Source: Halococcus qingdaonensis (GTDB lineage Archaea > Halobacteriota > Halobacteria > Halobacteriales > Halococcaceae). Taken from it: a stretch of DNA of 64,000 nt. Shown here piece by piece: positions 18,940 to 43,215 of the stretch. A model generated the notes under the pieces. The model ran no database searches, was not told where the DNA came from, and was given only the letters and a program-made list of their open reading frames with translations. The position numbers and the translations under genes were made by a program. The DNA is taken from positions 372,001-436,000 of the forward strand of contig NZ_CP101943.1 in the NCBI RefSeq assembly GCF_024508235.1, in the 5' to 3' direction. Within the stretch, counting starts at the first letter, position 1, and each line of letters begins with the position of its first letter.

Positions 18940-19390
18940 CTGCTGTGGCTGTGGCGGTGCTGTGCGGCCTGCTGACCTTGGTGTCTCGGCGAGTGGAACG
19001 AGCCGAGGCTCAGGAGAGTGTGCTCTCCTGGCGGATGAAGGGCGAACGAGCGACCGGAGTTCTCGTGAGCGAAGCGAACGAGAGCACGGAAGAGCGAAGC
19101 TCTTCCGGAGGGATGCGAGGGCTTCTGCGGTGCTGTGCGGGGCGGTGGCTGTGCGGTCTGCGGTTGTCATAGGTATCGAACCACGAACGAGCAACGCGAG
19201 TGAGCGGGCCGAGGAACCCCCGAAGGGGGTGACGCTGTCTGCGCGAACGAAGTGAGCGCAGGCTCGGGAGAGATTCGCTCTGCCGGTGGCTTTTGGTCCA
19301 GATTTTGCCACGAGCGAGCGAAGCGTGGTTCGAGACGCCTCCGGCGTCTCGTCATCACGAAAATCGCGCAGCGATTTTCGAACGACAGCA
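18940..19390 (+). repeat. Modular hairpin-rich intergenic repeat, copy B
   Basis: About 450 non-coding bases after the isoprenyl synthase. Modules: GGCGGTGCTGTGCGG (about 18953); a 37-base block at 18983-19019 identical to the reverse complement of 43127-43163 in copy C; an outer stem CAGGAGAG (19011-19018) / CTCTCCTG (19023-19030) closed by TGTG; GGATGAAGGGCGA; the stem TCTCGT / ACGAGA (19061-19066, 19078-19083) around the same 11-base loop as copy A; triplet-loop hairpins at 19087-19107 (loop GAA), 19216-19230 (GAA), 19331-19351 (TCC) and 19358-19380 (GCA); the 30-base block 19116-19145; and a TTTTGGTCCAGATTTT block at about 19290. Confidence 0.8.
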
Positions 19391-28158: not shown

Positions 28159-29711
28159 CGTTCACCCCCGTCGGCGCTGACGCTCTCGGCCGTCGTCGGC
28201 TCGTCGGGGCGTTCGCCGGCCATCAACAGGCCGAGTTCCTCTTCGGTCACCGTATCGGGATCGACGACGTCGACGAACTCGCCGTCGTGCATCACCGCGA
28301 GCCGATCGGAGAGCCCGCGCACCTCGGCGAGGTTCGCCGAGATCAGGAGCACTGCGACGCCGGCCTCGCGGAGCGCGAGCAGTCGGTCGTGGACGAACTC
28401 CGTCGAGCCGACGTCGACACCCCGCGTCGGGTGGGTCGCCACGACCATCCCCGGATCGCGCTCCAGTTCACGGCCGACGAGGAACTTCTGCTGGTTGCCC
28501 CCGGAGAGCGATTTCGCTCTCGCCTCGGGGTTCGGCGGGCGCACGTCGTAGGTCTCGATGACGTCGCTCGCGTGCTCGCGCGCGCTCGGCCAGTCGATAC
28601 GTGTCCCGCCGACGGGCGGGGTGTGCTGGCTTCCGAGCACGCCGTTTTCGGTGAGATCGAACTCCATGACGAGTCCGCGTTCCTGGCGATCCTCGGGTAC
28701 GTAGGCCATCCCACGTTCGATGTGGCCGCGCCGTGAAACGCCCGCGAGATCCTCTCCGTCGAGGCGCACCGTTCCCGTGTCCGGTGATCGGAGCCCGGTG
28801 AGCGCTTCAACCAGTTCGGCCTGGCCGTTGCCGTCGACGCCGGCGATGCCGAGGATCTCGCCTTCACGGACCGCGAAATCGACGTTTCGGACCTGGTCGG
28901 CCCCCTCTTCGGTGACCGTGAGCTCGTCGACATCGAGCACCGTCTCGCCGGCCTCGACGGGCTCGGTTTCGATGTCGAGCACGACCTCGCGACCGACCAT
29001 CATCTCGGCGAGCTGCTCGCGGTCGGTCCCGTCGGCGTCGACGGTGCCGACGTTCTCGCCGTCGCGGAGGACGGTGATGTCGTCGGCGACCGTCATCGCC
29101 TCGCCGAGTTTGTGTGTGATGAACAGGACCGTCTTCCCCTCGGCGGTGAGTTCCTCGAAGACATCGAACAGCTCCTCGACCTCCTGGGGAGTGAGCACCG
29201 CCGTCGGCTCGTCGAGGATCAACAGGTCGGCACCGCGGTAGAGCGCCTTCAGGATCTCGACGCGCTGGCGCTCGCCGACGCTGATATCCTCCACTCGCTC
29301 GTCGGGATCGACGGCGAAGCCGTAGCGCTCGGAGAGCTCACGAACCGCCTCGCGCGCCCGTGAGCGATCGGTCGCGAGCCCGCCCCACTTGGTGGGTTCG
29401 TTGCCGAGCACGACGTTCTCGCCGACGGTCATCGGCGGCACGAGCATGAAGTGCTGGTGGATCATGCCGATGCCGGCGTCGATGGCGTCGCGCGGCGCAT
29501 CGAACTCCCGCACCTCGCCGTCGAGCTCGATCGTCCCGCCCTCTGGCTGGTAGAGCCCGTAGAGGACGTTCATCAGCGTGGATTTCCCCGCACCGTTCTC
29601 GCCGAGCAGCGCGTGGACGCTGCCCGCCTCCACAGTCAAATCGACCGCGTCGTTGGCGACGACGCCCGGAAAACGCTTGGTGATGTCGTCCAAAACGACC
29701 GCGTCCGTCAT
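28155..29711 (-). CDS. ABC transporter ATP-binding protein with two ATPase domains
   Basis: 518 residues in tandem ABC halves. Half 1: Walker A GENGAGKST, signature ISVGERQRVEILKALYRGADLLILDEPTA. Half 2: Walker A position is GVDGNGQAELVEAL (degenerate, as usual for RbsA/BMP-type proteins), signature LSGGNQQKFLVGREL and a Walker B region reading VVATHPTRG, lacking the usual catalytic Glu. The first half therefore provides the active site. It powers the BMP-type importer and follows its binding protein by 66 bases. Confidence 0.94.
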   Translation of the reverse strand: MTDAVVLDDITKRFPGVVANDAVDLTVEAGSVHALLGENGAGKSTLMNVLYGLYQPEGGTIELDGEVREFDAPRDAIDAGIGMIHQHFMLVPPMTVGENVVLGNEPTKWGGLATDRSRAREAVRELSERYGFAVDPDERVEDISVGERQRVEILKALYRGADLLILDEPTAVLTPQEVEELFDVFEELTAEGKTVLFITHKLGEAMTVADDITVLRDGENVGTVDADGTDREQLAEMMVGREVVLDIETEPVEAGETVLDVDELTVTEEGADQVRNVDFAVREGEILGIAGVDGNGQAELVEALTGLRSPDTGTVRLDGEDLAGVSRRGHIERGMAYVPEDRQERGLVMEFDLTENGVLGSQHTPPVGGTRIDWPSAREHASDVIETYDVRPPNPEARAKSLSGGNQQKFLVGRELERDPGMVVATHPTRGVDVGSTEFVHDRLLALREAGVAVLLISANLAEVRGLSDRLAVMHDGEFVDVVDPDTVTEEELGLLMAGERPDEPTTAESVSADGGER

Positions 29712-42897: not shown

Positions 42898-43215
42898 ACA
42901 CCGCACAGCACTGCCTCCGCCGAAGCCCTCGGGGCGCGCTCACTCCGTTCGCTACTCGCTCGGCTCCGCCTCGCTTGCGCCCCTCGCCCTTCATCCACCA
43001 AGAGAGCATAGTCGTTCGAGAGAGCGAAGCTCTCTCGTGATCGTCAAAAGAGCCGAGGGCTCTTTTGGATCTCGCGGGAGCTTCGCTCCCGCTCAATGAC
43101 GAAAGACGCGAAGCGTCTTTCGAACCACTCTCCTGAGCCTCGGCTCGTTCCACTCGCCGAGACGCCAGGCACCGCCCGGCATCGCCAGCCGCCTCAGCAC
43201 CGCAGCCGCGGTCAC
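42898..43215 (-). repeat. Modular hairpin-rich intergenic repeat, copy C (four triplet-loop hairpins)
   Basis: Non-coding copy in reverse orientation. On the minus strand the order is: GGCGGTGC-like block (about 43190), the 37-base block at 43163-43127 identical to copy B, outer stem CAGGAGAG (43135-43128) paired with CTCTCTTG (43006-42999, one wobble), the 18-base TGGTGGATGAAGGGCGAG block (43000-42983), a palindromic GC stretch, and the CGAGGGCTTCGGCGG/TGCTGTGCGG block (42930-42898). Inside the outer stem lie four perfect hairpins: 43017-43037 (loop GAA), 43045-43067 (GAG), 43074-43092 (TTC), 43100-43122 (GAA), with arms of 9, 10, 8 and 10 bases and 6-7-base spacers. Confidence 0.8.

Follow-up and report, generated by a model that had tools for sequence, protein, structure and literature searches.

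The window (the whole 64,000-nucleotide stretch of Halococcus qingdaonensis DNA analyzed here) carries, between purA (PF00709) and a Trm112-like gene (PF03966), a row of four perfect triloop hairpins on its forward strand. Hairpin 1 (43017-43037) has a 9-bp stem and a GAA loop, hairpin 2 (43045-43067) a 10-bp stem and a GAG loop, hairpin 3 (43074-43092) an 8-bp stem and a TTC loop, and hairpin 4 (43100-43122) a 10-bp stem and a GAA loop. Coordinates, arms, loops and the spacers of 6-7 bases are all as given in an initial annotation of this DNA. The outer pair described there, CAAGAGAG (42999-43006) with CTCTCCTG (43128-43135), is likewise present, albeit with one A.C mismatch, as is copy B, in which CAGGAGAG (19011-19018) closes over TGTG directly onto CTCTCCTG (19023-19030).

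When the organism's own 2.70-Mb genome is searched, two components separate: query positions 1-112 and 228-271 belong to a dispersed frame with about 30 copies, and positions from about 112 to about 229 make up the array. Matches to the left part of the frame are confined to the same genus; the array reaches other families. In the window, the left part of this genus-restricted repeat occupies 42904-43010 (+) and ends in CTTCATCCACCA(A/G)GAGAGC, and the right part, CTCTCCTGAGCCTCGGCTCG..CTCGCCGAGACG, occupies 43128-43163 (+). The frame is thus itself a dispersed repeat, represented in the window by copies at 42904-43163 and 18983-19130. The outer stem that was initially seen to enclose the array does exist, but it is the target hairpin and lies outside the element. 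Its left part, CAAGAGAGC-ATA-G (42999-43011, +), and its right arm, CTCTCCTG (43128-43135, +), are identified by empty paralogs (L023, L029, L032, L034 and L038) and by an empty ortholog in the related genome G009, and inspection of copy B reveals the same empty hairpin at 19011-19030 (-). The insertion point in the window follows the G at 43011, at the tip of the host hairpin GAGAGC-ATA-G^CTCTC.

Set side by side, the frame paralogs fall into three states: some have an empty hairpin of the form CAGGAGAGC-NNN-GCTCTCCTG, L021 is filled with two hairpins, and the window copy with four. In G009, whose flank is 95% identical, the orthologous site downstream of purA is an empty CAGGAGAGC-CGC-GCTCTCCTG, and in G004 there is an independent two-hairpin insertion elsewhere within the same purA-downstream intergenic frame. 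The proposal that the array is optional cargo in a conserved frame is therefore borne out, both by the empty orthologous hairpin and by the paralogous frames, empty or filled, of the same genome. Judging by these comparisons, the window copy is a recent insertion, for which the empty site in G009 and the independent insertion in G004 are the best evidence. The right part of the frame resembles a second double hairpin, [CAGGAGAGC-NNN-GCTCTCCTG]GAG[CCTCGGC..GCCGAG], lying beside a CCAGGA repeat; frame copies that lack this double hairpin read CCACCAGGACCGC, and in L029 and L055 its stems are altered yet still paired.

The copies collected from the window and elsewhere share a common core, TCGTT-hairpin-TGATGA-hairpin-AACCA, with ends that form an imperfect inverted repeat (TCGTTCG/TGGTTCG). 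In the window, comparisons of filled and empty sites, which display zero target duplication, delimit an inserted four-hairpin element of 116 nt that runs from TCGTTCG to CGAACCA (43012-43127, +). Its left end, TCGTT (43012-43016, +), and its right end, AACCA (43123-43127, +), are invariant in the alignment and pair with one another save for one conserved C.C mismatch. The linker TGATCGT (43038-43044, +) consists of the left part of the TGATGA linker and the start of an inner insertion, within which lies the inner linker GATCTC (43068-43073, +; GACCTC in relatives), and TCAATGA (43093-43099, +) contains the right part of the TGATGA linker. Covariance model R1, whose spans extend over the target's bordering G and C, detects exactly two strong copies in the window, at 43011-43128 (E 4.7e-10) and at 19325-19386 on the minus strand (68.1 bits, E 4.5e-19); the latter is a 60-nt element of the two-hairpin form (19326-19385, -). 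The two-hairpin form, at 54-66 nt and usually about 60 nt, is the commoner, and the four-hairpin form measures 110-118 nt. At 56-118 nt, the element is too short for a transposase gene.

The four-hairpin form corresponds to an extra pair of hairpins residing inside the TGATGA linker, represented in the window by hairpins 2 and 3. At five loci in G001 (L061 and L332-L335), the frame hairpin is the same and the outer hairpins match those of the window, but the inner pair is a different one, GTCAGAACGT / GTCGAGC (type 2) rather than the CAAAAGAGCC / GCGGGAGC of the window (type 1). A single frame hairpin is consequently found with three contents: the two-hairpin form (L021), the type-1 four-hairpin form (the window) and the type-2 four-hairpin form (the G001 loci). 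The inner pair has conserved linkers of its own (GACCTC or TGCAA), and the inner stems vary too. Searches for paired half-elements in the four fully listed genomes returned two- and four-hairpin spacings only. Longer or differently composed arrays appear to lie between conserved ends in L082 (about 1343-1530) and L227 (about 3240).

The core pattern is present in 168 of 292 Halobacteria genomes and in 61 of 77 genera, in a sample of one genome per species whose copies in related species are not independent, and the reversed pattern used as a control gave none. Within the window's own family, 15 of 18 genomes contain it. A scan of all GTDB representatives yielded at least 120 stretches, and all 80 titles among the matches listed are haloarchaeal, as are, by the genera listed, the 31 plasmid records that carry the pattern; there were no occurrences in IMG/VR or in phage records. 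A wide-gap pattern search of Haloquadratum records gave matches that are mostly due to chance. Reading the array as a private one is thus incomplete, given that it belongs to a mobile element with defined boundaries that occurs across the class Halobacteria, usually with two hairpins. Copy number is very uneven, reaching about 31 or more elements in some genomes (G071, G017, G303 and G169), and the element is found in no sampled member of one genus (g34) and in nearly none of another (g39). In several draft contigs from G001 and G007 (L333-L335, L338, L339, L340, L342 and L351), an N lies in or beside the array and part of the array is repeated beyond it, so that assemblies seem to break at hairpin arrays.

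Many pairs of filled and empty sites can be aligned, and in none of them is the target duplicated. The joined flanks match empty sites that already hold the bordering G and C, including 12 with exact 9+9 flanks, and because the empty sites already have this GC, the element must be TCGTT...AACCA, placed between these two bases without duplication. Before the G, the left flank shows a preference for CGNN (C at -5, 0.73; G at -4, 0.82). The flank frequencies derive largely from loci retrieved by a search in which the outer G and C were prescribed, such that the empty sites alone test those two bases. Most sites conform to CGNNG^C, and 15 insertions lie in triloop hairpins where 3.8 are expected. 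Neither a pure sequence motif nor a pure hairpin describes the target, as both contribute. Beyond the host-hairpin classes, complementarity between the flanks is modest (23 sites with stems of at least 7, versus 6.5 expected).

The copies occupy non-orthologous sites, which fall into hairpin tips, the 3′ palindromes of IS605-type elements (GCCTCGGGG^CTTGACCCCGAGGC) and other intergenic palindromes; insertions also occur at the ends of annotated transposase genes. In the genomes sampled for the genus to which Haloquadratum J07HQW1 was assigned, the element sits inside IS605-type near-terminal palindromes. The same IS605-type 3′ palindrome is occupied in many genera (L078, L083, L104, L132, L143, L215, L223, L402, L405 and L423). 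Conceivably, the element may ride with IS605-type transposons or disable them, and it could alter RNA from that end.

Comparison of copies with empty sites suggests that the element is mobile. Overall, with a probability of roughly 0.8, the array appears to be a copy of a haloarchaeal mobile DNA element that encodes no protein and is non-autonomous, and for which an HUH-like route is proposed. By analogy, the absence of target duplication, the one-sided target preference and the hairpin ends resemble HUH-like single-strand transposition. In such a scheme, the active form would be folded DNA, either a single strand or a cruciform, whose folded ends would be recognized by an enzyme encoded elsewhere that cuts at the precise ends. 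The excised element would then be joined to a nicked CGNNG^C without target duplication, in the HUH style of IS200/IS605 or REPIN-like elements, and its perfect arms might be restored via arm-to-arm copying or the exchange of whole hairpins.

An IS200/IS605-type transposase is one candidate for this enzyme; it would cut hairpin ends in single-stranded form, and the element would be either its minimal derivative (a PATE) or, like a REPIN, the rider of such a Y1 protein (TnpA/RAYT). Consistent with this assignment are the zero target duplication, the short left-flank target motif, the hairpin ends and the frequent insertion in or beside IS605-type 3′ ends, and haloarchaea have Y1 proteins. However, the distribution of PF01797 (Y1_Tnp) does not follow that of the element: three genomes with many copies lack it (G071, with about 31 elements; G017, with 36 exact copies; G058, with 10), and it occurs in genera that have no element. 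An IS200 TnpA/RAYT helper was thus set aside. In addition, IS605 elements and PATEs lack terminal inverted repeats (PMC3119063) and the element has an imperfect one, and no tnpA flanked by element ends was seen. The PATE-type end, which has no inverted repeat and is related to the IS605 palindrome, is not matched by the element's own conserved inverted ends. Transposition by a Y1 enzyme therefore seems unlikely. In the four genomes with full lists, pairing of half-elements brought up no gene-bearing version. It is possible, though at odds short of even, that the non-autonomous element belongs to a class-wide archaeal transposition system that has no gene-bearing element at all. Its unit would be a folded DNA junction in which linkers and ends serve as the recognition signal, the hairpins are obligatorily unlike, arms are rewritten as whole palindromes and pairs added in the linker make arrays grow, and a host-encoded or other enzyme would target CGNNG^C, often at hairpin tips.

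The stems vary among copies in a manner that preserves pairing. Across 30 diverse copies, standard pairs fill 98.9% of the cells, two-sided changes outnumber one-sided changes by 89 to 3, and the covariation score is 0.371, as compared with 0.133 for shuffled and at most 0.103 for slid alignments. In a larger set of 200 distinct elements with 391 hairpins, 97.8% of 3548 stem pairs are Watson-Crick and 327 of the 391 hairpins are perfect. Stems of RNA normally include G-U steps, and in the 30 diverse copies such pairs occupy just 3 of 614 cells. Of 377 triloops, 275 (73%) read GNA on one of the two strands, and with the conserved linkers as reference both orientations occur; constant arms are found with loops that differ or are flipped. 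DNA mini-hairpins whose GNA loop is closed by C-G are exceptionally stable; d(GCGAAGC) melts at 78 C (PMC4686876). Because G-U steps are scarce, GNA triloops occur in both orientations and the same arms carry flipped loops, the selected form appears to be folded DNA, whether single-stranded or cruciform.

Strong covariation together with conserved linkers would also be expected of a dispersed gene for a structured non-coding RNA, or of a transcription terminator, with stems that covary for RNA folding. The conserved polarity of the element accords with this explanation, as does the C-box-like linker GTGATGA. The non-Watson-Crick cells of the 200 elements, 37 G.T versus 18 A.C, are the one mild sign that a single strand is under selection, and an RNA could also account for this excess. 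The rarity of G-U pairs and the occurrence of both loop orientations at a fixed linker orientation are difficult to reconcile with an RNA, as is the fold of the window copy: with DNA energies, 42995-43145 forms exactly the four array hairpins, on the forward strand (z -5.8) as on the reverse (z -5.6), whereas the minimum-energy RNA fold differs and pairs hairpin 1 of the array with hairpin 3. For the same reasons, the multi-branched RNA tree envisaged in the initial annotation is disfavored. No Rfam family matches at the gathering threshold, and the copies do not lie beside conserved genes, leaving an RNA function very unlikely. A box C/D RNA was also considered in view of the GTGATGA linker and rejected, since no D box is visible by eye in the two-hairpin core and the loops are strand-mixed.

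The hairpins of one element are never alike. The claim that those in the window share no sequence is only partly correct, failing for the outer two, whose arms begin CGRRA and come from a limited repertoire. This repertoire is common to both positions in the two-hairpin core, with CGAGAGAGC the most frequent stem in each; nevertheless, none of 200 elements contains the same stem twice, where 13.3 are expected (minimum 5 in 2000 shuffles), and among 127 distinct stem pairs there are no identical hairpins, where 5.8 are expected (P 0.0018). Two explanations suggest themselves: deletion of identical palindromes, or a junction that needs two separate arms. A related and unexplained preference for heterodimers has been described in many families of bacterial REP sequences (PMC3733652), on which the rule of unlike hairpins may bear.

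Two-sided changes without intermediates, and differing or flipped loops on constant arms, might likewise arise in static palindromes that are kept perfect merely by arm-to-arm copying during replication, with no transposition. This is highly improbable, in that the precise boundaries, the empty sites with an intact GC and the scattered, non-orthologous positions of the copies require insertion. As for a chance array in a GC-rich, low-complexity stretch, whose composition does favor short palindromes, its likelihood is negligible: the window contains 11 perfect triloop hairpins with stems of at least 8 bp against a mean of 3.5 in order-1 Markov shuffles (n=40), its largest cluster within 110 nt holds 4 against 2 in the shuffles (a number reached once), none of the 40 shuffled windows having more than two per 110 nt, the ends are conserved in 61 genera, and the arms of other copies, which the initial annotation had expected to be unpaired if chance were responsible, stay paired.

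The statement that no such array had been described is too strong, as SMR-A of Haloquadratum, REPINs and mitochondrial double-hairpin elements are of closely similar kinds. SMR-A of Haloquadratum walsbyi (HqIRS42, HqIRS43 and HqIRS55), reported by Dyall-Smith and colleagues, comprises three unrelated sequences from one species, non-coding and about 110 bp long, with prominent inverted ends unrelated to known transposons and no target duplication, which insert in near-terminal palindromes of IS605-type elements and PATEs and whose mobilization is enigmatic (PMC3119063). The haloarchaeal element shares the non-coding character, the lack of target duplication and the IS605/PATE palindrome sites. 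Its imperfect TCGTTCG/TGGTTCG repeat may correspond to the inverted ends of SMR-A, and its four-hairpin form (110-118 nt) comes near to the SMR-A length, but the two-hairpin form of about 60 nt is the commoner one. Further differences are that the element often occupies sites other than IS605 palindromes, and that neither an array of hairpins, nor arms that covary, nor a CGNNG^C site, nor spread over the class figures in the description of SMR-A. Because its behavior matches that of SMR-A and insertions occur in palindromes in the J07HQW1 genus, the element may be regarded as SMR-A-like by behavior, set beside HqIRS42/43/55 by description and not by sequence. As has been suggested before for SMR-A, insertion in IS605 ends could inactivate the transposons concerned or hold them in check.

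In REPIN/REP systems (PMC3116915, PMC3733652), two inverted hairpins similarly constitute the replicating unit, which is non-autonomous and intergenic. Those families have a GTAG/CGTC tag rule. For the archaeal element no RAYT partner was found, its stems are freely variable with perfect compensation and its hairpins are never identical. PATEs and IS200/IS605 ends share hairpins near the ends and a lack of target duplication, but PATEs have no terminal inverted repeat, and the PATE/IS605 palindrome is here the target rather than the element. The nearest analogs outside the prokaryotes are the mitochondrial double-hairpin elements (DHE of Allomyces, RHE of sponges; PMC2800124), small gene-less mobile hairpin pairs that in Allomyces lack flanking duplications and whose mover is enigmatic. 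They differ in being organellar, and they are not known to have conserved linkers with covarying arms or a defined target.

What is new is the class-wide spread, an architecture of several covarying hairpins joined by conserved linkers, the core of two hairpins, the exact target, the rule of unlike hairpins and the negative result with PF01797. SMR repeats have been enigmatic in one species since 2011, and this kind of element now gains a core, boundaries, a target and a host range. With a defined core and a host range over most sampled haloarchaeal genera, the mover can be sought in tractable haloarchaea, and the uneven copy number would suit a gene-association search for it. Hairpins that are never identical, two-sided arm changes and GNA loops together make up an unusual natural record of constrained DNA secondary structure. 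Elsewhere in the window, other perfect triloop hairpins with stems of at least 8 bp lie outside the element, at 28330, 45992, 51381 and 57900.
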